Of a stretch of 64,000 nucleotides of DNA, positions 22,119 through 59,227 are shown one piece after another. The stretch covers positions 57,620 through 121,619 of the forward strand of contig ONFG01000001.1 in assembly GCA_900317025.1 (NCBI GenBank). The letters are read 5' to 3'. The position numbers and the translations under genes are program-made. Each line of letters begins with the position of its first letter. Position 1 is the stretch's first letter. Under the pieces are notes generated by a model, which did no database searches, was not told the DNA's origin, and saw only the letters and a list, made by a program, of their open reading frames with translations. Source of the DNA: an uncultured Eubacteriales bacterium (GTDB lineage Bacteria > Bacillota > Clostridia > Oscillospirales > Acutalibacteraceae).

Positions 22119-25100
22119 TCAGAACAGCGACATCTGGTTAGATTCGGGGAGGTCGCCGAACGCACCTACCTCTTTTAGCATTTCGATGACAGTTTTCGAG
22201 ACTTTCGAGGAGCGTGCGACGTCTTCTATCGAGAGGAAGCCGCCGTTTTTAACAACCTCACTAAGGCTTTCCGCCGCTGCCTCGCCGACTCCCGGCATTG
22301 ACGAGAACGGCAGGCGCAGCGCGCCGTCTTCGATGAGGAACTTCTTCGCCTCGGACTTGTAGATGCTTATCGGCAGCACCTTGATGCCCCTTGCAAGCAT
22401 CTCGTTTACGATCTGGAGCGTTGCAAGGTCGGTTTTCTCCTTTGCGGAGGCGGCGTTGCCCTTGTCGGTGATCTCCTTGATCTTTTTCTCGACCGCAGGC
22501 TTGCCCTCGAGCGCGGACTTTGCGTCGAAGCTCTCACCGCGCACGGTGAAGTATGCAGCGTAGTATTCGAGCGGCTTATAGACCTTGTACCAACCAAGAC
22601 GCAGCGTCGAGATCATGTAAGCCGCCGCATGAGCCTTCGGGAACATATACTTGATCTTCATACATGAGTCAATGTACCAGTCGGGAACGTCGTGCTCCTT
22701 CATCGCCTTGATGTGATCTTCTGTAAGCAGCTTTGTGGCGTTGCCCTTTCTGACGATTTCCATTATCTTGAACGCCATCTTCGGCTCAAGCCCTTTGTGC
22801 AGAAGGTACGTCATGATGCTGTCTCGTGTTCCGATAACCTCGGAGATCGTGCAGGTGCCGTTGTGGATAAGCTCCTGCGCATTGCCAAGCCAAACGTCGG
22901 TGCCGTGGGAAAGACCGGCGATCTGCATGAGGTCGTCGAACGTCTTCGGTCTTGCCTCGACGAGCATCTGACGAACGAAGCTCGTACCCGTCTCGGGCAG
23001 CGAGAATGTACCCGTTTCGCTGCCGATGTCCTCGGGCTTTACGCCGAGCGCCTCGGTCGAGGTGAAGAGCGACATTACCTTTTCGTCTGACATCGAGACG
23101 TCCATCACCTTGATCCCGGTGAACTCCTCTAAATAGTGGTAGATCGTCGGGACATCGTGACCAAGCTCGTCGAGCTTGCAGATCGTATCGTGGATAGAAT
23201 GGAAGTCGAAGTGGGTCGTTATGTTGTCGTTTTTCATGTCGTTGGCGGGGTGCTGTATCGGGCAGAAGTCAAAAATGCTCTTGCCCCTCGGCACAACGAC
23301 CATGCCGCCGGGGTGCTGACCCGTCGTGCGCTTTATTCCGGTGCAGCCCATCGCAAGGCGCTGCTCCTCCGCTTTATGGAATATGTGTTCCGTTTCCTCG
23401 GCGTACTTCTTGACGTATCCGAACGCCGTTTTGTCGGCGACGGTTGCGATCGTTCCCGCCTTGAAGACATTTTCCTTGCCGAAAAGCACCTCTGTGTAGC
23501 GGTGAGAACGCGACTGGTATTCGCCGGCGATGTTGAGGTCAATATCGGGGACCTTGTCTCCATCGAAGCCTAGGAACGTCTCAAACGGGATCTCATGTCC
23601 GTCGCGGTGGTAGAGCGTGCCGCAGTTGGGGCATTTCTTTTCGGGCAGATCGAAGCCCGAGCCGTAGCTGCCGTCGGTGATGAATTCGCTGTTCTTGCAG
23701 TTGGGGCAGATATAATGCGGGGAAAGCGGGTTTACCTCGGAGATACCCGACATCGTGGCGACGAATGACGAGCCTACCGATCCTCTCGAACCGACGAGGT
23801 AGCCGTGCGCCTCCGAGTCGGCAACGAGCTTCTGCGCCGTCATGTACAGAACGGAGAAGCCGTGTTTGTTGATCGAGCCAAGCTCTCGGTCGAGCCTGTC
23901 TTTAACGATCTTCGGCAGCGGGTCGCCGTACATCTTCTTAGCTCTCTCCCATGTGATCGAGTTGAGCTGCTCCTCTGCGCCGTCGATGAACGGCGGGAAG
24001 TTGCCGTCGGGTATCGGCTTTATCTGCTCGACCATGTCGGAGATCAGATTTGAGTTTGTAACGACGATCTCATAAGCCTTCTCGTCGCCGAGGTAGTCAA
24101 ATTCCCGGAGCATTTCCTTCGTTGTGCGCAGGTAGAGCGGCGCCTGCTTGTCAGCGTCTTCAAAGCCCTTGCCGTGCATGATTATCTTGCGGTACTCCGC
24201 CATATGCGGGTCTAGGAAGTGGACGTCACAGGTGGCAACAACGGGCTTTTGCAGCTTTTCGCCGAGGGCGACGATCTTCCGGTTAAAGTCCTTTACGCCC
24301 TCTATGCTGTCGACCGTGCCGTTTCTTGTCATAAAGGCGTTGTTGCCGAGCGGCTGTATCTCGAGGTAGTCGTAATACGAGGCGATCTTTTCAAGCTCTT
24401 CGTCACATTTGCCGATAACGACCGAATGGTAAAGCTCGCCGATCTCGCACGCCGACCCTAGGATAAGCCCCTCTCTGTGGCGGTTGAGAACGGAACGGGG
24501 GATCCTCGGCCTTCTATAGAAATAGTTAAGATGAGCATAGGAGATCAGCTTGTAAAGATTTTTAAGCCCGACGAGATCCTTGACGAGAATGATTATATGG
24601 TACGTCTTCTTCTTTTTGAGCTGCTCCATTGTAAGCTGCGAACAATTTTCGCAGATAGCGTCTTCGCCGTCGTAGGGCTTGCTCTCCTCGTCGTCCATAT
24701 CGTCGACGAGGTATCCCTCGCAGCCGTAGATAACCTTGAACTCGCCGCCGTTTTTATGTATCTTATTCACGGCGTTCATCGCGTCAGGGAAGGCCTGCGC
24801 AACGCCGTGGTCGGTTATCGCGATCGCCGGCATACCCCACTCGAACGCCCTGTTGATAAGATCGGCGGCGGGGGTGATACCGTCCATGTCTGACATATTC
24901 GTGTGAAGGTGCAGCTCGACACGCTTTGTTGGCGCATTGTCGACGATCTTCACCTTTTCGCCGGTGGAGATACTATCCGCCATAACGACGATCTCGTTGT
25001 CGTAGCGGTCAAACTGAACGCTGCCCTTGACGATTATTGTCTTGCCCGCTTTCAGAAGCTCGATCGGCTTGCAGGCTTCGATCGAGTCGATAAGCTTTAC

Positions 25101-25955
25101 CGTCATCGAGCCGGTGTAATCGGTTATTAAAATAGAAACGATGTACTTCTTACCGTCGCGGGTGGTGCGGAAATCGAGTGAGAAGATGTCGCCCCAGATC
25201 ATGGCGCTGCCGGAATCGGCGGAGATCGTGTTTATCGGGACGGTGCTGACCTTCGTTATCGCTCTGCCGTAGAGCGGATGAGCAGAATTCGGCGCAAGCA
25301 CCGGGTTTAAACTGTCAGCCTCGCGCACCTCTATCTTGACGGCGGATGCCGCCGCCTTTTTCTCACGCTCCTTCGCCGCAGCCATTACCTCTTCCTGACG
25401 CTGGAGTTTCTGCTCGTCGGCGGCGCGCTTTACCTCGATTTCGAACTGCTTCTGCATCTCAATGTAGACGTCGTCGTCAGCCGAAAGAGACGAAACGCCT
25501 GTAAACTCGACCGAAACGTTTACGCCGAACATATCGGAAATCGCCTTTGAGATCATCTTTCCTGCGTTCTGCCCCTTTATGACCGCTTCGCCGCCGTGGA
25601 AAAGCTCGATGGTCAGCGCGCTGCCGTTGAGTGTGGCGTTTGCATCCTTGAAGGTGCCGTTGAGCGTCATGTTATCGCGCTTTAAGTGAGTAACGATCTC
25701 CTGGAAGTAATCGGCGGTGAAAAGCGATTCGGGGAACTGCGTGTTTATGCGCACCGAGGAAAGCTCCAGGCTCTTCACAAGCTCCCGCTCCATTGCGAGG
25801 ACGTCGCCCTGCGGGACAAGCCTGTCAAATTCGAGCATCACAGTCATTGTATTTGATTCTTTGTTTACGGAGATCCTGCTGACCCGACCCAAACCGAGGC
25901 TGTCGGAAACGGAGGGCGATATATAATCTTTAAATACTTTAAGTACCGTACTCAA
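22119..25955 (-). CDS. polC: PolC-type DNA polymerase III alpha subunit lacking the exonuclease domain
   Basis: Replicative polymerase, 1278 residues against about 1440 for Bacillus PolC. Order: N-terminal domain (1-200), OB fold (about 245-335), PHP part 1 (HLHTNMSDMDG at 349; ITDHG at 380; VIYGCEGYLVDD at 408), PHP part 2 from about 451 (TYHIIILVKDLVGLKNLYKL), the zinc module (CPNCKNSEF..CPNCGTLYH), catalytic palm with PDIDLNIAGEYQSRSH, and C-terminal HhH and DLPESNQMSLF clamp tail. In canonical PolC the proofreading exonuclease lies inside the PHP after YLVDD. Here it is replaced by about 32 residues containing CENC, and no DVETTGL-type motif exists anywhere. The gene otherwise looks intact. 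Confidence 0.96.
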   Translation of the reverse strand: MSTVLKVFKDYISPSVSDSLGLGRVSRISVNKESNTMTVMLEFDRLVPQGDVLAMERELVKSLELSSVRINTQFPESLFTADYFQEIVTHLKRDNMTLNGTFKDANATLNGSALTIELFHGGEAVIKGQNAGKMISKAISDMFGVNVSVEFTGVSSLSADDDVYIEMQKQFEIEVKRAADEQKLQRQEEVMAAAKEREKKAAASAVKIEVREADSLNPVLAPNSAHPLYGRAITKVSTVPINTISADSGSAMIWGDIFSLDFRTTRDGKKYIVSILITDYTGSMTVKLIDSIEACKPIELLKAGKTIIVKGSVQFDRYDNEIVVMADSISTGEKVKIVDNAPTKRVELHLHTNMSDMDGITPAADLINRAFEWGMPAIAITDHGVAQAFPDAMNAVNKIHKNGGEFKVIYGCEGYLVDDMDDEESKPYDGEDAICENCSQLTMEQLKKKKTYHIIILVKDLVGLKNLYKLISYAHLNYFYRRPRIPRSVLNRHREGLILGSACEIGELYHSVVIGKCDEELEKIASYYDYLEIQPLGNNAFMTRNGTVDSIEGVKDFNRKIVALGEKLQKPVVATCDVHFLDPHMAEYRKIIMHGKGFEDADKQAPLYLRTTKEMLREFDYLGDEKAYEIVVTNSNLISDMVEQIKPIPDGNFPPFIDGAEEQLNSITWERAKKMYGDPLPKIVKDRLDRELGSINKHGFSVLYMTAQKLVADSEAHGYLVGSRGSVGSSFVATMSGISEVNPLSPHYICPNCKNSEFITDGSYGSGFDLPEKKCPNCGTLYHRDGHEIPFETFLGFDGDKVPDIDLNIAGEYQSRSHRYTEVLFGKENVFKAGTIATVADKTAFGYVKKYAEETEHIFHKAEEQRLAMGCTGIKRTTGQHPGGMVVVPRGKSIFDFCPIQHPANDMKNDNITTHFDFHSIHDTICKLDELGHDVPTIYHYLEEFTGIKVMDVSMSDEKVMSLFTSTEALGVKPEDIGSETGTFSLPETGTSFVRQMLVEARPKTFDDLMQIAGLSHGTDVWLGNAQELIHNGTCTISEVIGTRDSIMTYLLHKGLEPKMAFKIMEIVRKGNATKLLTEDHIKAMKEHDVPDWYIDSCMKIKYMFPKAHAAAYMISTLRLGWYKVYKPLEYYAAYFTVRGESFDAKSALEGKPAVEKKIKEITDKGNAASAKEKTDLATLQIVNEMLARGIKVLPISIYKSEAKKFLIEDGALRLPFSSMPGVGEAAAESLSEVVKNGGFLSIEDVARSSKVSKTVIEMLKEVGAFGDLPESNQMSLF

Positions 25956-26010: not shown

Positions 26011-27054
26011 TCATATCTTTTCTATCTCTTCCATGAGCGCGGCAACAAGCTCCGACTCGCTCACCTTGCGGACGATCTCGCCCTTTTTGAAGATAAGCCC
26101 TACGCCGTCGCCGCCTGCGATGCCAATGTCGGCTTCTCTCGCCTCGCCGGGGCCGTTGACTACGCAGCCCATCACAGCGACCGTGATAGATTTATCGCAG
26201 TCCCTCAGGCGCTTCTGCACCTCGTTTGCGATGCCGATGAGGTCGATTCTGGTGCGGCCGCACGTCGGGCAGGAAATGAACTTCACGCCGCTTTTGTCGA
26301 TGTCGATCGCTTTGAGGATATCCTTTGCGGCGTAAACCTCCTTAACGGGCGAATCGGTGAGCGATACTCTGACGGTGTCACCGATACCTTTGAGAAGGAG
26401 CGAGCCTAAACCTGCCGCCGACTTGATAAGCCCCATTCGCTCCGTGCCTGCCTCGGTAACGCCGAGGTGGAGCGGGTAATCGCAGCGCTCGCTTGCAAGC
26501 TCATATGCACGTATCATAGTAGAAACGGTCGACGACTTCATCGAAAGCACGATGTCGGTAAAGTCGAACTTTTCGAGCAGCGAGGCGTGGTAAAGCGCAC
26601 TTTCGCAGAGCGCCTCGGCGGTGGGAGAGCCGTACTTTGCGAGGATATGCTTCTCGAGCGAGCCGGAATTTACGCCGATCCTGATCGGGATATTTCTCGA
26701 GCGGCACGCCTTGACGACCTCGTGAACTCTGTCGTCGCTGCCGATGTTGCCGGGGTTGATGCGCACCTTGTCGATGCCTGCCGCTACCGACTCGATAGCT
26801 AAACGATAATCAAAATGGATATCGGCGACTATCGGCACGGAAACCGCCTTTTTTATCGGCTTGATAAGCGATACCGCCTCCATGTTTGGTATAGCAATAC
26901 GGATTATCTGACAGCCCGCCTTTTCAAGCTCAACGCACTGCGCAACGCTGCCTTCAATGTCGGTAGACGGAACGTTTACCATCGACTGAACGGAGATCGG
27001 AGCACCGCCGCCGATCTCGACATTGCCTGCCTTTACCTTTATCTTACTGCTCAT
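26011..27054 (-). CDS. ispG: HMBPP synthase (flavodoxin/ferredoxin)
   Basis: Converts methylerythritol cyclodiphosphate to HMBPP, the step before IspH. It has 347 residues. TIM-barrel part begins with GGAPISVQSMVNVPSTD; the C-terminal 4Fe-4S domain has CPTCGRTRIDL and MGCVVNGPGEA, the ligand motifs. It is part of the dxr-rseP-ispG-polC run. Confidence 0.97.
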   Translation of the reverse strand: MSSKIKVKAGNVEIGGGAPISVQSMVNVPSTDIEGSVAQCVELEKAGCQIIRIAIPNMEAVSLIKPIKKAVSVPIVADIHFDYRLAIESVAAGIDKVRINPGNIGSDDRVHEVVKACRSRNIPIRIGVNSGSLEKHILAKYGSPTAEALCESALYHASLLEKFDFTDIVLSMKSSTVSTMIRAYELASERCDYPLHLGVTEAGTERMGLIKSAAGLGSLLLKGIGDTVRVSLTDSPVKEVYAAKDILKAIDIDKSGVKFISCPTCGRTRIDLIGIANEVQKRLRDCDKSITVAVMGCVVNGPGEAREADIGIAGGDGVGLIFKKGEIVRKVSESELVAALMEEIEKI

Positions 27055-27064
27055 AGTAACACCT

Positions 27065-28429
27065 CTACCCTCCGATGCCTGTGCCTGTTATAAGCCTTAC
27101 GATGTCGTTCATTGTTATCACGGCGATAAATCCCAGCAGGAGAATGAATCCCGCCGCATGGACCCAGCCCTCGTATTTCTGAGGGACGGGCTTGCGCATG
27201 ATGACCTCGATCACCATAAAGAGGAAGCGTCCGCCGTCGAGCGCCGGAAGCGGCAAAAGGTTGACGATGCCAAGATTTACGGTTATTATCATCATCATAT
27301 ATAGGATATTGTTGACGGCGTCGAGAAAGCTCGTTTTCAAGCCGACCTGTGCCGCCTGAGTTACTACGGACGCCGCGCCTACCGGCCCCGCCATGTCGTT
27401 CATTCCGTACGTTCCGGTAACAAGCCCGAAAAGGCTCTTCCAGATCATGCGAACGACAGAGAACGTGCTGTTCCAAGATTCGGAAACGAGCGTCAAAAAC
27501 GTCTTCTCAACAGGCTCGACGGTGAAGTCGATAGCCACTGCGGGCTGGTCGTCTTCGCCTAGGTAGGTGTAAAAGTCGACGTCGTAAAGCGTTGTCTCAA
27601 CGCCCCCTCGAAGCACCGTTACATCGGTTCTGAAGCGCTTGCGCTCCGGCATATACTCCTGCTTCTCCGGCACATAGTCCTTGCCCGAAAGCTCGTTTAC
27701 CGCGGCGAGCGTTTCCTGCGTTATCCTGTCCGCCTCTTCCTTCGAGGCGCATACGTTTATCTTGTTGATGCCTTCGTTGAAAGCTTCGGTTATCGCGCGA
27801 AGCTCGTCGTCGGTGTAGTCCTCCGCTTTTAAGGAGGTATACTGACGGAGCAGCGTATAGCCGCAGTCTTCCCTATAGATCGAAAAGTCGCCGCCGTCAA
27901 CGATCTTAAGGTCAAGCATCGCGACGGCAAACTGGATATCACGCGAGCAATTTATCTTGTAGCCGCCGATATTGAGCAGCTTGTCGCCGACCTCCAAACC
28001 CGACTTTGACGTAAACGCCGCCTGAGCAAAATCGGAAACGGTCGTGGACGAAAAGGCGGGCGATTGAGCCGTGAGGATCGTCATCATGATAAGACCGAGC
28101 ACTATATTATTGAATGCACCCGCAACAATCACGATCATGCGCTGCCATACGGGCTTGTTGATGAAGGCTCGCTCGTTGTCGCTCTCTTCGTTTTCGCCCT
28201 CAAGCGCACAGTATCCGCCTATCGGAAGCATACGCAAAGAATACTTCGTCTCACCCCTATGGAACTGAAAAAGCTTAGGACCCATGCCTATAGCGAATTC
28301 ATTGACCTGTACCCCGAATTTTTTCGCCGTTATGAAGTGACCGAACTCATGGATAAACACGATAAGCTCAAACAGCAGAACTCCGATCGCTATCAATGCG
28401 GCGGTGGTTAAAATTTTCGTTATGATCAT
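27065..28429 (-). CDS. rseP: RIP metalloprotease RseP (site-2 protease, M50)
   Basis: Membrane zinc protease that cuts membrane-bound regulators or signal-peptide remnants. It has 454 residues. Zinc motif FIHEFGHF (His27, Glu28, His31) is in the first membrane segment; a PDZ domain carries SGLEVGDKLLNIGGYKI; the second site is NLLPLPALDGGR (NxxPxxxLDGG type). A long insert of about 100 residues with charged helices lies after the PDZ domain. GGAAGG is close to the ATG, so the start is the least certain point. Confidence 0.95.
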   Translation of the reverse strand: MIITKILTTAALIAIGVLLFELIVFIHEFGHFITAKKFGVQVNEFAIGMGPKLFQFHRGETKYSLRMLPIGGYCALEGENEESDNERAFINKPVWQRMIVIVAGAFNNIVLGLIMMTILTAQSPAFSSTTVSDFAQAAFTSKSGLEVGDKLLNIGGYKINCSRDIQFAVAMLDLKIVDGGDFSIYREDCGYTLLRQYTSLKAEDYTDDELRAITEAFNEGINKINVCASKEEADRITQETLAAVNELSGKDYVPEKQEYMPERKRFRTDVTVLRGGVETTLYDVDFYTYLGEDDQPAVAIDFTVEPVEKTFLTLVSESWNSTFSVVRMIWKSLFGLVTGTYGMNDMAGPVGAASVVTQAAQVGLKTSFLDAVNNILYMMMIITVNLGIVNLLPLPALDGGRFLFMVIEVIMRKPVPQKYEGWVHAAGFILLLGFIAVITMNDIVRLITGTGIGG

Positions 28430-54400: not shown

Positions 54401-57400
54401 TTATGTATTGCTGCCGAGGTCTTCCTTCATAAGGTGGTACGTTACGCCGTCGGCAAAGGTGATCTCTGTCGTGCCGCTGCCGGCTTCTTTAGCGAACGTA
54501 CCCTTTACCTCGCTGCCGTTCCACTCGTAGATAACGCCGAGACCACACGCCGAGCCGTCTTCAAACGAGCCGGTGTAACCGTGGTCGGTGTAAATGATAG
54601 TACCCTTGCCAAACGGTCTGCCGCCGACGAGCATACCGGAATAGGAGCCGGAGCCGACCTCGCGCTCGATAACGTAGTTCGGACCTTTTATGAAGCGGCT
54701 GTACTCGCTGCCGATAAGCTTTGAACGCAACGGGAGATCGTCGAGACGCTGCAGGCGCACCTTCATGCTTTTGAACGGCTTGCCGCCCTTGAAGATGCCC
54801 TCGAAATACTTCTCGCCGTACTGCGAGAAGCCGCAGCCCATGCCTTCGTAAACACCGTCTTTGACGTAGCCCTCATACTTTACACTGAGTCCGTCATCGG
54901 TGAATTCTCTCATGTATACGCACTTGCCGTCGCTGAATATACACTCTTTAACGACGACGCCGTTTTTTATCTCGTTTATCCTTCCGTCGGGAATACCCAT
55001 GGAGAAGCTGCCCGCAAGGTACGGCTTGCCGTCTTTATAGAGAAGGCCCTCGCCGTCTTTTCTGCCCTCGCTCCAGTGGCCGCTGTATTCCGTTTTGCCG
55101 TCGGGGGTGAAGCTCGTTCCGACGCCGCGCCTTACGTTTTCTTTGAACTTTCCCTTGTAAACGAGCATACCGCCTCTGTATTCGCTGCCTACGCCGGAGC
55201 GCACTCCGTTTTTCCACTCGCCCTCGTAGACCTTTTCGCCGTCTTCGTAGCCGACGCCTGTGCCGTGGTAAACCTCGTTGCGAAGCTCGCCCTTATAGAT
55301 GAGGTTGCCGTCGCGGTCGTAGCAGGAGAGTACGCCGACGGGGCGGCCGTCAGCAAATGTTCCCTTGTACCACGAGCCTGTTTTGATGTCAAACTTTTTG
55401 CCCTCGCCGTGGAAGTGGTTTCTGACCCACTCACCCTCGTAGAGCTTCTTGCCTCGCTTCGTCGTAAAAACGGCGTAGCCGTCGATAGTTCCCATGACGA
55501 AATTGCCGGAAACGCGGCAGCCGTTGGAGAGCGTTAAAATGCCGTCGCCGTTGAACTTGCCGTCCTTCCACTCGCCGTGGTAGCTTACCTGACCGCTCGC
55601 ATCGTACTGTGTGCCGACGCCGTTGCGCTTGCCGTTTTTCCACGAACCGTTATATATAAGATTGCCGTTGGAATCGAAGAGAGTACCCTTGTCGGAGAGG
55701 CGGTCGTCCTCCCAGCGGGAAACGAAGACGCTTTCGTCGCTCGGGTTGTAGAGCATACCGACGCCCTCGCGGCTGCCGTTTTCCCAGCGGCCGACAAATT
55801 TAAGGTCGCCGTTTTCGTCAAACTTCGCGCCCATGCCGACGGGGCAGTTGTTCTCCCATTTGCCGACATACATCGAGCGATCTTTCGGCTTGAAGGAAAT
55901 ACCGATGCCGTTGCGGCGGTTCTCCTTCCAGTCGCCGACGTAGCAGATACTTCCGTTGCTGTAGTAGTATGCGCCGAAGCCGCTGCGCTTATCGTTTTCG
56001 TACTCGCCGTCGTAGGCGGTGAGGTCGCCCTTCATCGCCGTTCTGCCTCTGCCGTGGCGCTGACCGTCTTCGTTTAATTCACCGTAGTAGTAATACGCGT
56101 CGGCACCCTGCGCACCGATAACTTTTGCAGGCTCAAGCGAGCCGTCAACGCTTTCCTTGCGGAAGGTCCTGACCGGCTGCGGCTCGGGCTTCTTTTCGAG
56201 CGAGGGCTTTTCAGCAGGCTTCTCGACGGGCTTGTCGTCCTTCGGCGGGTCTGCCGGGGTGCTGTTCAGCGCGTCGGAAAGCGACTGCTTCATAAATTCT
56301 ATCGTCTTGCGGCTTGCGCGCTCGTCGAGCGTAGATATGCTCTCATTCGCAGCAGGGCGAGCACGCTTGTAGCCGTAGGAGCGCTCGCCCGTTTTTGCGG
56401 CAGCGCCGATGTCAAATTCCTGCGTTATATCAAGGTCGGAGTCGTCCTCTTCAAGCTCCTCGTCGTCTTCGTCGTCAAGCTCGTCGTCTTCGTGTAAGGT
56501 GTCGGGAGCGGAGGTGTTTTCCTCGACGAACTCGTCCTCCTCTTCGTCCTCGTCATCATCGTCGTCCTTGTCGTCAAAAAGGATATCGAAGACGTCGCGC
56601 TTTTTCTCCGGCTCGGTCTTCTGCTGCTCGTCCTTTTCGATCTTTTCGAGCAGTGAATCGGAGTGGAGCTTCGGAAGCTCCGGCTCGTCGGAGGAAGGCT
56701 TTGCGCCCCACGACCTCGAGGGCGGCAGCGAGTCGCTCTTGTCGAAGCTGAAAACAAGGCTGTCCTTCGGCTTCTCCTCGGGGACGATAACGTCGCTTGT
56801 CTGCGTGAGATCTATCTTCCTCTGAGGTGCGTCTGCGCTCGGCTTGTCGGTGGACTTCGTCTGATCGCCGAGCAGCGACGGGTCGTCGCAGTAGCGCTCC
56901 CAAAGGCGCGCTATTCTGTCGTTCGCGAAGAAAACGTAGCCGTTTGAGCAAAGCGTGCTGACCTCGGGAACTCCGAGCTTGTCGGTAAGCTTTTCGAGAA
57001 GCGCCTGATCCTCGACAACGCGGCACGGGTGAAGCACCTCGGGTCGGCTGTCATCGCCGCCCGCCGTATATTTAAGGATCGCCGCCATGCCGTTCTTGTC
57101 CCAGTAGACAAGCTCCACCTCCGGCTCGGAGCTGTTAGAACCGTAGTACTTAGTCTTGATCCAGTTGTGGTACGGGCCGAAATACATACATTTCAATATC
57201 TTGCCGAAATTATCGCGTACCTCGACTCTGTAGTCGTCGCCGTCACGCTGCGGGGGAACTCGCTCGAGCACCCTGTTCGCGGTATTGACGACCTTCCACT
57301 TGAGGACTGTATCTTCGTTCAAAGAATAATTATATTTATAGATCTTGCCGTCGTCGCCCATATCGGTGAACTTGCGCTTCTGGGTCTGCAAGCCCGACTC

Positions 57401-57523
57401 GTAATAGTTCTTGCGAACGACCGTCAGTTTATCTTTATAAGGGTTTCCCTTATCGTAGCCTTTTAAAAACACACCGTAATAATTAACGGCATTTCGTTTA
57501 AAATATGTTAAATCGCCCGGCAT
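54401..57523 (-). CDS. MORN-repeat protein with acidic linker and unknown N-terminal domain
   Basis: 1040 residues from ATG 57523 (AAAGGGG 8 nt upstream). No signal or membrane segment, so cytoplasmic. Residues 1-215: aromatic, charged domain I do not recognise. Residues 220-470: disordered, with a long Asp/Glu tract (317-365) and a Pro/Lys part. Residues 477-900: about 18-20 MORN units of pattern YxGxW(K/E)xGxxxGxG. The tail has further degenerate units. MORN arrays often bind membranes or act as scaffolds. It sits directly upstream of the MscS channel. The same class of repeats is common but this layout is not one I know. Confidence 0.85.
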   Translation of the reverse strand: MPGDLTYFKRNAVNYYGVFLKGYDKGNPYKDKLTVVRKNYYESGLQTQKRKFTDMGDDGKIYKYNYSLNEDTVLKWKVVNTANRVLERVPPQRDGDDYRVEVRDNFGKILKCMYFGPYHNWIKTKYYGSNSSEPEVELVYWDKNGMAAILKYTAGGDDSRPEVLHPCRVVEDQALLEKLTDKLGVPEVSTLCSNGYVFFANDRIARLWERYCDDPSLLGDQTKSTDKPSADAPQRKIDLTQTSDVIVPEEKPKDSLVFSFDKSDSLPPSRSWGAKPSSDEPELPKLHSDSLLEKIEKDEQQKTEPEKKRDVFDILFDDKDDDDDEDEEEDEFVEENTSAPDTLHEDDELDDEDDEELEEDDSDLDITQEFDIGAAAKTGERSYGYKRARPAANESISTLDERASRKTIEFMKQSLSDALNSTPADPPKDDKPVEKPAEKPSLEKKPEPQPVRTFRKESVDGSLEPAKVIGAQGADAYYYYGELNEDGQRHGRGRTAMKGDLTAYDGEYENDKRSGFGAYYYSNGSICYVGDWKENRRNGIGISFKPKDRSMYVGKWENNCPVGMGAKFDENGDLKFVGRWENGSREGVGMLYNPSDESVFVSRWEDDRLSDKGTLFDSNGNLIYNGSWKNGKRNGVGTQYDASGQVSYHGEWKDGKFNGDGILTLSNGCRVSGNFVMGTIDGYAVFTTKRGKKLYEGEWVRNHFHGEGKKFDIKTGSWYKGTFADGRPVGVLSCYDRDGNLIYKGELRNEVYHGTGVGYEDGEKVYEGEWKNGVRSGVGSEYRGGMLVYKGKFKENVRRGVGTSFTPDGKTEYSGHWSEGRKDGEGLLYKDGKPYLAGSFSMGIPDGRINEIKNGVVVKECIFSDGKCVYMREFTDDGLSVKYEGYVKDGVYEGMGCGFSQYGEKYFEGIFKGGKPFKSMKVRLQRLDDLPLRSKLIGSEYSRFIKGPNYVIEREVGSGSYSGMLVGGRPFGKGTIIYTDHGYTGSFEDGSACGLGVIYEWNGSEVKGTFAKEAGSGTTEITFADGVTYHLMKEDLGSNT

Positions 57524-57598
57524 TTTTGTAACCCCTTTCAAAACCGCTTAGATTTATTATATGAAAAATCGGGTGGTATTTCAAGAGGTTTTGTCTGA

Positions 57599-57696: not shown

Positions 57697-58335
57697 TCAA
57701 TCTATTATCCCGGACAGCTCGTAGGCGCTGCCGAGAACGGCAACATCGCCGTAGCTTTTGAGTACCTCTGCCCCCTGATGCCCCTTCGCGATCAAAACGC
57801 AGTCTGCGCCGACACGAGAAGCCGTCTCGAAGTCGTGGTACATATCGCCGATGAAGAGCGTTTCCTTCGGGTCGTAGCCGTATTTCTTGACGATAGCCGC
57901 CGCGCGCTCGCTTTTGGAGCCGCAGTCGACGTCGTCGGCGCCCGACATGAAGTCAAAGAAGCCGTCAAGTCCAAACTTTTCAAGGCTAGACGTAAGCCGC
58001 CCCGTCTCAAAACCCGAGATAACGCCCTGATGAAGCCCCAGCCTTTCAAAGCGCCTTATCGCCTCGCACACCTCGGGGAAGGGCTTTGCTTCCGCTGAAA
58101 TACGGTCGTAATTTTCGAGGAAGGCGTCGGCTACCTGCCGGAAGTCACAGACGGAAAAGTCGTAGATCTTGTCGTAAAAATTGCGAATCGGCATCTCACA
58201 CTCGCGAAGGTAAAAGTCCATGTTGATCTCGGGGTTGCCGTGAGCCTTCAGAACGATGTTCTCGGCGGCAACAGCGACCCACGCGTCGTCGATGATGGTT
58301 CCGTTGTAGTCCCAAACGATGAATTTATACTTCAA
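57697..58335 (-). CDS. HAD-family phosphatase
   Basis: A 212-residue phosphoglycolate-phosphatase-like enzyme. Motif I is VWDYNGTIIDD: nucleophile Asp9, but the usual second Asp is Asn11. Motif II VISGF, motif III Lys near GSKSE, motif IV FIGDMYHDFETA. A helical cap lies between. TTG 58335 is preferred (AAGGTG 9 nt upstream); it overlaps the exonuclease stop. An upstream GTG at 58371 would add 12 residues. Substrate unknown. Confidence 0.83.
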   Translation of the reverse strand: MKYKFIVWDYNGTIIDDAWVAVAAENIVLKAHGNPEINMDFYLRECEMPIRNFYDKIYDFSVCDFRQVADAFLENYDRISAEAKPFPEVCEAIRRFERLGLHQGVISGFETGRLTSSLEKFGLDGFFDFMSGADDVDCGSKSERAAAIVKKYGYDPKETLFIGDMYHDFETASRVGADCVLIAKGHQGAEVLKSYGDVAVLGSAYELSGIID

Positions 58336-59227
58336 GCCGCTGTTCACCTTCTCTGCCTGTTTTTTCCGCACTCCCGCCGTTTTCGTCTTCCTCGGCGATC
58401 GGCACGAGCTTTTTCTTGATCGACATACCGTTGTAGTTGATCTTGAACTTGACCTTGCCGGTCATCTTTCTGCCGCAGCTTTCGCATTTCAATACGGCGG
58501 TAAAGCCCTTACTCTTGACAGACCAGTCGGTAAGCGGCACAAGCGGGCTGCCGCAGCTTCCGCAGCGAAGTTCAAACTCGCTCTTGTTGACAAGCGGACT
58601 GTTGATGTCGGTAACGTAGTACGACTTGAAGGTCAGGCGATAATGCAGCTCGTCCGCAGTCTCGAGGTACTTAGGGAATTTCTCGGGGTAATAAAGGTTT
58701 TTGAAAATGCTCATCGAAAGCATACTGTCCTGTAAAGCGCGATGAGCAACATAATCGGCGGGGTCGATGCCAATAAGCTCCGCCGCAGGCGCAAGTCCGA
58801 GCTGCCGCCCTGCGTTGTAAACTCCCAGCACCTCCGCACAGTAGACCTGAAGGTCACAGTAGCGGTAGATGAAGTCGACGCGGTCGGTCTTTTCGTAATA
58901 CTGTGTGTTCTCCATGAGCGCGAGGATATCGCACGTACCCCACGTCAGGAGTATATCGTTTCCGAGGAATTTCTTGAATTTGCTGAGTACACGAGTGTAG
59001 GTAGCTCCGCCTTTCAACAGCTCTTCGTTGCTGATGTTCGTAAGCTCCCGCACCTTGCCCGTGAGCTTCTTTGCGACCTGGGGCGCAACGAGCATCGAGA
59101 AGGTGTCGAGCACCTCGAACTTATCGTTGAAGCGCACCGCTCCGAACTCTATGATCTCACTCATAAAGCCTTTGTATTTTTTACTGTAGGAGCTGTTCCA
59201 TTCAAGGTCAAGTATTACAAAATTCAT
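58325..59227 (-). CDS. DEDDh 3'-5' exonuclease with C-terminal zinc ribbon
   Basis: 300 residues. ExoI VILDLEWNSS (Asp7, Glu9), ExoII LLTWGTCD, ExoIII YVAHRALQDSM (HxAxxD), so the catalytic set is complete; the WG.CD form resembles KapD-type members. The C-terminal part has CGSCG and CESCG, a four-Cys ribbon, then a basic segment. Between typA and the HAD gene. It could act on RNA or DNA; interesting here because PolC lacks its own exonuclease domain. Confidence 0.88.
   Translation of the reverse strand: MNFVILDLEWNSSYSKKYKGFMSEIIEFGAVRFNDKFEVLDTFSMLVAPQVAKKLTGKVRELTNISNEELLKGGATYTRVLSKFKKFLGNDILLTWGTCDILALMENTQYYEKTDRVDFIYRYCDLQVYCAEVLGVYNAGRQLGLAPAAELIGIDPADYVAHRALQDSMLSMSIFKNLYYPEKFPKYLETADELHYRLTFKSYYVTDINSPLVNKSEFELRCGSCGSPLVPLTDWSVKSKGFTAVLKCESCGRKMTGKVKFKINYNGMSIKKKLVPIAEEDENGGSAEKTGREGEQRLEV

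Follow-up and report, generated by a model that had tools for sequence, protein, structure and literature searches.

The polC locus and its product

The window, by which we mean the whole stretch of 64,000 nucleotides that was analysed, comes from an uncultured gut or rumen bacterium and carries a polC gene with a TTG start codon. Translation of the window ORF gave a frame unbroken over 1278 amino acids. The features discussed here are as follows.

22119..25955, reverse strand: polC ORF, a single open frame encoding a PolC of 1278 aa (PRK00448, 1494 bits against a cut-off of 873)
24969..25943, reverse strand: NI and NII domains and OB fold, residues 5-329 (PF14480, PF11490; PF01336 under its cut-off)
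24705..24923, reverse strand: first part of the PHP domain, residues 345-417, with ligands H349, H351, D358, H383 and E413 (Pfam and alignments)
24600..24704, reverse strand: linker replacing the DEDDh exonuclease (Exo), residues 418-452 (D418 to Y452, 35 residues; alignments and sequence)
24156..24599, reverse strand: second part of the PHP domain, residues 453-600, with ligands H453, C503, D577 and H579 (Pfam and alignments)
22704..23969, reverse strand: polymerase region, residues 663-1084, with PDIDLN at 803 (Pfam and motif check)
22122..22388, reverse strand: helix-hairpin-helix region and C-terminal QMSLF, a beta-clamp-type motif, residues 1190-1278 (Pfam and sequence)
26011..28429, reverse strand: upstream neighbours of polC among the window ORFs, presumably ispG-like (26011-27054) and rseP-like (27065-28429)
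58325..59227, reverse strand: stand-alone DEDDh exonuclease of 300 aa (best NCBIfam match KapD, under cut-off), not PolC-derived

Pfam recognized the NI and NII domains, PHP as a single stretch (residues 347-528), DNA_pol3_alpha, the finger and HHH_6, which together with the OB match under its cut-off gave the PolC domain order NI-NII-OB-PHP-Pol3-finger-HhH, while no RNase_T domain was matched at E <= 0.001. In NCBIfam the protein also exceeded the TIGR01405 cut-off (1364 against 1043 bits), and since the best DnaE model scored 204 bits against a cut-off of 1260, it is not a DnaE1. It shares with canonical PolC (B. subtilis; PRK00448 / TIGR01405) the NI, NII, OB, PHP, Pol3, finger and HhH domains, the clamp-type motif and the status of a single ortholog. 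It differs in that neither Pfam nor an alignment of 94 PolCs showed the DEDDh Exo that is nested in the PHP domain of the canonical enzyme. The earlier note had read the gene as a PolC without its exonuclease domain, and this was borne out by the missing RNase_T match, the linker at residues 418-452 and the two length classes described below. The protein is also shorter than its exo-bearing relatives, as had been claimed, but the figure of about 160 residues was slightly low, most of their frames being ~1430-1500 aa long. An AlphaFold model of residues 225-1278 was of moderate quality (mean pLDDT 78.9, pTM 0.57), with parts of the polymerase region below 50 and a mostly confident PHP domain; its best fold matches were 3F2C and 3F2B.

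The genome has a single PolC, a single DnaE and two DEDDh proteins that stand alone, neither of them derived from PolC. A second PolC, with or without an exonuclease, was looked for in the 92% complete draft, as the earlier note had proposed, and none was found; the only RNase_T matches in the genome were the two stand-alone genes, none being attached to a PolC. Of 80 named loci, 72 gave a match to an ispG homologue, which lies upstream of polC whether or not the genome has the Exo; the other eight gave none. Therefore, the window polC is the ortholog rather than an additional copy. Elsewhere in the window, a 1046-aa ORF on the reverse strand (54401-57541) contains many putative MORN-like repeats after an acidic low-complexity stretch.

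The linker at the exonuclease site

The linker sits between the metal ligands E413 and H453, at the site of the DEDDh domain in other PolCs, and formed a low-confidence loop in the AlphaFold model (block pLDDT 54-64, around residues 425-444). Among the 94 aligned PolCs, the equivalent stretch measured 7-36 residues in the 50 exo-less rows and 177-214 residues in the 44 rows that carry an Exo, whether intact or dead, and no intermediate lengths occurred. The linkers of the exo-less lineages varied in both length and sequence, and an impression of equal linker length across exo-less PolCs, obtained from BLAST segments, was consequently dropped. This segment estimate misscored the exo-bearing row L160/G043 as insert-free and left some rows unmeasurable, but otherwise returned the same two classes.

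The CENC-containing linker that had been reported in place of the Exo is real: C.NC was present in 17 of the 18 genomes of the window's genus and NC in all 18, and among the rows aligned the CENC-containing stretch occurred only in this genus. A KPxxGEDxICENC-like stretch was kept in most of the genus, while the whole linker varied more than the core; it might be a binding peptide. The same junction, which the earlier note had suggested looking for in related genomes, was found in all 22 genomes of the genus searched (18 in the alignment; G004, G008 and G012 by BLAST segments; G009 by one match to residues 1-596 that leaves no room for an insert). An assembly or binning artefact might be considered, the window's genome being a draft of 47 contigs and 92% completeness, but an identical junction in 22 of 22 genomes excludes an assembly deletion, and we put the chance of an artefact close to nil.

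Separate origins of exo-less PolC

Within the order, exo-less PolCs are spread over several separate lineages rather than united in a single clade. For the largest PolC tree, 14 fragment or duplicate loci were dropped, and 152 rows were reduced to 125 by removing identical C-terminal 800 residues and to 88 by thinning at 85% identity. In the FastTree of these rows without the insert, the exo-less rows needed seven changes, six of them forced by supported branches. The smaller trees of 49, 38 and 23 rows used rows hand-picked from the 94 to cover the clades. Seven changes were forced in the quick 49-row PolC tree and six in the careful 38-row PolC tree, in which a single exo-less clade was rejected (AU p = 1.3e-5; the tested clade was defined by its trait, with an earlier tree already in view). 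In the 60-genome DnaE tree, ten changes in exo state were needed, with seven forced. A loss-only count on the 38-row PolC tree gave nine exo-less clades, but collapsing branches changed nothing and may not have worked, and we claim only those changes that supported branches force. Both states occurred within genus g15 (G035 without Exo, G439 with it) and within family f19 (genus g34 without, genus g72 with).

In the PolC tree, the window's genus lay within a set of 14 rows that mixes exo-less, dead-exo and exo-bearing PolCs and has 100/100 support, and it was likewise nested in a 13-row set of the DnaE tree with a support of 99. Change counts cannot tell loss from regain by gene transfer, and such transfer could account for G439 and G036, which bear an Exo but lie among exo-less rows. 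Loss is the simple reading for the window's genus, in which the absence of the Exo is fixed, because of its nested position among exo-bearing rows. The clean domain loss postulated in the earlier note is thus upheld by this nesting in both trees together with the continuity of the PHP domain across the site.

A dead exonuclease in the sister genus

The ExoI, ExoII and ExoIII motifs were all present in 110 of 112 exo-bearing rows, a set in which many genomes appear twice and which comprises 78 distinct sequences, 77 of them intact. The two failing rows, L086 and G440, are one organism entered twice, and the other two genomes of its genus, G456 and G457, likewise had no Exo motifs on reading. 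All three genomes of this genus keep an insert of approximately exonuclease size with none of the DEDDh motifs left. The inserts are homologous to the PolC Exo: they matched a PolC-Exo profile built without them at 34, 47 and 52 bits, against a best score of 6.8 in 600 shuffles, and an hhalign comparison with the PolC Exo gave 98.8% over 101 columns. A model of the dead insert folded like an exonuclease, and its best matches included PolC and DnaQ structures, a result that is biased because the underlying alignment otherwise consisted of intact Exo rows. At 80% core identity the dead insert was 39% identical, whereas none of 49 exo-bearing pairs with core identities of 78-90% fell below 62%. 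Its dN/dS in the closest pair was ~0.085, so that it is seemingly still constrained and may have a role.

This genus was recovered as sister to the window's genus in the DnaE FastTree (support 98) and in the 23-row trees of DnaE alone (97/98) and of the PolC and DnaE concatenation (99/97). PolC alone neither recovered nor rejected the sister pair, the best free tree being better by 6.6 lnL (p = 0.37); support for the sister relation comes from DnaE and the concatenation. The motif-less, exonuclease-sized insert of the sister genus suggests an inactivation that was followed by excision, while two separate events in two sister genera could also have given this picture. One could further suppose that exo-less PolC is the old form, which never had the insertion, and the clean short linkers of several exo-less lineages would suit such a history. 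With a single exo-less clade rejected, the window's genus placed inside exo-bearing rows and a ruined Exo present in the sister genus, we consider this very improbable.

In the same dead-exo genus, G457 carries an additional PolC-like protein of 841 aa that lacks the N-terminal domains and the Exo (L280:1969-4494, reverse strand) and in which several PHP ligands appeared changed and PDIDLN kept when inspected by eye.

PHP site, polymerase motifs and rates of evolution

The PHP ligands HHDHEHCDH were complete in all 94 PolCs (50 exo-less, 41 exo-bearing and 3 dead-exo), and the window PolC accordingly has the nine ligands HHDHEH[C/H]DH of a PHP-exonuclease replicase. All nine were also found in 71 of 73 DnaEs, the other two being cut by a contig end (G027) or broken by a run of N (G402), and the DnaE of the window's genome keeps them all. 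PHP-based activity, one of the consequences proposed in the earlier note, is the best supported of its options in that the nine ligands are kept; they are equally intact in exo-bearing relatives, so they do not show a takeover by PHP and do not discriminate among these options.

The distance-ratio comparisons omitted G203 and G456 as fragments. The ratio of the PHP rate to that of the polymerase core was 2.01 in the window's genus (152 pairs), 1.51 in exo-bearing genomes (354 pairs) and 1.44 in the other exo-less ones (56 pairs). A tighter constraint on PHP after the loss of the Exo was therefore rejected, the window's genus showing the opposite (2.01 versus 1.51). The PolC/DnaE distance ratio was 0.30 in the window's genus (36 pairs), 0.70 in exo-bearing (323 pairs) and 0.76 in other exo-less genomes (413 pairs), these pairs not being matched for divergence; measured from outgroups, it was 0.45-0.55 in the window's genus versus 0.49-0.59 in sister exo-bearing genomes. 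By these ratios, faster PolC evolution after the loss was not seen in the window's genus. PDIDLN was present in 92 of the 94 aligned rows (one variant, one row cut off), the commonest PolC C-termini were QxxLF-like clamp motifs, and the core dN/dS of the closest pair of the window's genus was ~0.026 (0.029/1.126). With intact motifs, this low core dN/dS and a PolC that is conserved relative to DnaE, the protein looks like a working replicase.

Alternative readings of an intact but exo-less PolC

A stand-alone DnaQ-like protein could have taken over the exonuclease role of PolC in the window's genus, as the earlier note had suggested in naming proofreading in trans. At least one RNase_T protein besides the ~300-aa KapD-like one was indeed found in 11 of 13 genomes of the genus. 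On the same side, of the 21 family members with a PolC-Exo-like best match, G455 with a frame of only 469 aa included, 18 had one other match (17 of 291-372 aa and one 122-aa fragment), two had none and one had three, and the dead-exo G440 had one other match (294 aa). The additional proteins of the genus are not PolC-derived; the nine compared fell into at least three distinct types, were closer within a type, and were 27-40% identical to the nearest PolC Exo, and no such protein was found in G011 and G018, which are 97% and 95% complete. In the window's genome the second stand-alone RNase_T protein is a 194-aa DnaQ-like one on another contig. It and the KapD-like protein were 33% and 27% identical to the nearest PolC Exo rows, respectively, and no clamp motif or C-terminal extension was seen by eye in the 194-aa protein. 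Since G203 and G453 combine an exo-less PolC with the lack of any RNase_T match at E <= 0.001, a DEDDh partner is seemingly not generally required. A takeover by a stand-alone protein appears unlikely. Domain fission, with the Exo moved to a separate gene, found no support in a comparison of 22 stand-alone exonucleases with the Exo domains of PolCs; the top-scoring ones, from G054 and G037, were 40-42% identical to the nearest PolC Exo, and the nearest row of the G054 protein came from outside its own family. Stand-alone DnaQ-like exonucleases are also found at L174 and L175 (genomes G021 and G016), and the G021 copy ends in TYSLF, which by eye resembles a clamp-binding tail.

It may also be asked whether PolC has been demoted, with DnaE replicating the genome and PolC serving as a helper that needs no proofreading and is on its way to loss. 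A minor role in Clostridia was raised by Timinskas et al. 2013 (PMC3919608), who asked whether PolC there serves only special situations. Among the matches listed, PolC was missing from all ten sampled genomes of family f10 and from some f1 genomes, and five PolC-less genomes adjoin exo-less lineages at three places in the DnaE tree. These placements, three out of three, carry little weight because most rows of that tree are exo-less, and completeness is only 69% and 82% for two of the five. The demotion is further opposed by the intact polymerase and clamp motifs and by PolC being the more conserved of the two polymerases in the window's genus (ratio 0.30, against 0.70 and 0.76), and we judge it quite unlikely. 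In the window's own family, the genomes lacking a PolC match include G402, G029 and G450, and the DnaE tree places them next to exo-less lineages. The reverse pattern was seen in G030 (99% complete), G026 and G453, which have a PolC and no DnaE besides PolC itself at E <= 1e-5. Draft gaps are a possible cause; a PolC-only genome, if real, would break the published rule that a DnaE is present in every bacterium.

Relation to known polymerases

Exo-less PolC was published in 2013, and the class is therefore not new. According to Timinskas et al. (PMC3919608), 6% of PolCs lack the Exo, nearly all of them in Clostridia and Negativicutes, and the subtype without the Exo insertion in PHP pairs with DnaE1 and not with DnaE3. 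The window PolC belongs to this subtype in lacking the Exo and in coming from Clostridia, its host being probably a member of Acutalibacteraceae, as named relatives such as Caproiciproducens suggest. The one DnaE of its genome has all nine PHP ligands, as reported for DnaE1, and may be of that type. The accessible part of that survey, which gives the class as a proportion of PolCs, does not describe separate origins or a dead-exo intermediate, and searches of an open-access library, supplementary files apart, found no description of either. New here are the separate origins in the order, the dead Exo in the sister genus and the nine PHP ligands in all 94 PolCs. According to a 2026 survey (PMC12926913), the inactivated proofreader is not the DnaQ one of Pol III alpha subunits; the dead-exo genus departs from this statement.

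The closest artificial counterparts are the engineered deltaN-deltaExo PolCs of G. kaustophilus and S. aureus (PDB 3F2B; PMC3656037), in which the Exo was reportedly removed at the same point and which, unlike the window protein, are also without the N-terminal domain. The 3F2B sequence, the G. kaustophilus construct, aligned through the linker site with a short linker of its own, and the S. aureus construct was reported to be kinetically active (PMC3656037). Polymerases of the exo-less architecture therefore work, as these constructs show. PMC5636811 describes an altered PHP ligand and no PHP exonuclease activity in G. kaustophilus PolC, whereas the window PolC keeps all nine ligands. The same paper reports that mycobacterial DnaE1 proofreads with PHP, and that the groove leading to its PHP exonuclease site is lined by a loop at the position of the PolC insertion. 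DnaE1 of M. tuberculosis and T. aquaticus resembles the window protein in its nine ligands and in having a loop at the corresponding position next to the PHP site; it differs in having the OB domain at the C-terminus (PMC3919608), and the window protein is not a DnaE.

Proposed course of the loss and its meaning

We consider it probable that the window gene is a normal single polC whose Exo was lost by inactivation and subsequent excision, the product being a working replicase with built-in proofreading, if any, provided by PHP. The DEDDh exonuclease would first have been inactivated in this lineage, and the dead Exo would then have been excised to a short loop, at a point where DnaE1 also has a loop beside the PHP active site. 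The exo-less PolC would still act as a clamp-bound replicase; any built-in proofreading would come from the nine-ligand PHP sites of PolC and of its DnaE partner, and MutS-type mismatch repair could serve as a backup behind PHP. As regards the altered replication fidelity that the earlier note named as a further possible consequence, MutS is present in the window's genome, and MutS_V was matched in 30 of 30 genomes, with a high-scoring MutS1-like protein in 29. A PHP exonuclease activity of the exo-less PolC is what we infer, and by analogy the enzyme may fall back on the PHP and loop arrangement of mycobacterial DnaE1. More tentatively, PolC may have given up its DEDDh proofreader repeatedly within one order, here by inactivation and then excision via an intermediate still living in the sister genus, so that an intact PHP site with a DnaE1-like loop would be its only built-in means of proofreading.

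When a main replicase loses its proofreading, a mutator normally results. Combining a proofreading-deficient polC allele with a mutL allele in B. subtilis was reported to raise the rate of rifampicin-resistance mutations ~6000-fold (PMC11890065). Screens that define PolC by its RNase_T insertion, as that of PMC11963600 is reported to do, would miss the exo-less enzymes. The exo-less lineages beside exo-bearing kin, even within g15, and one ruined copy amount to a natural experiment on PHP proofreading in PolC. If this tentative reading is true, clostridial PolC would carry two redundant proofreaders, of which evolution freely discards the DEDDh one.
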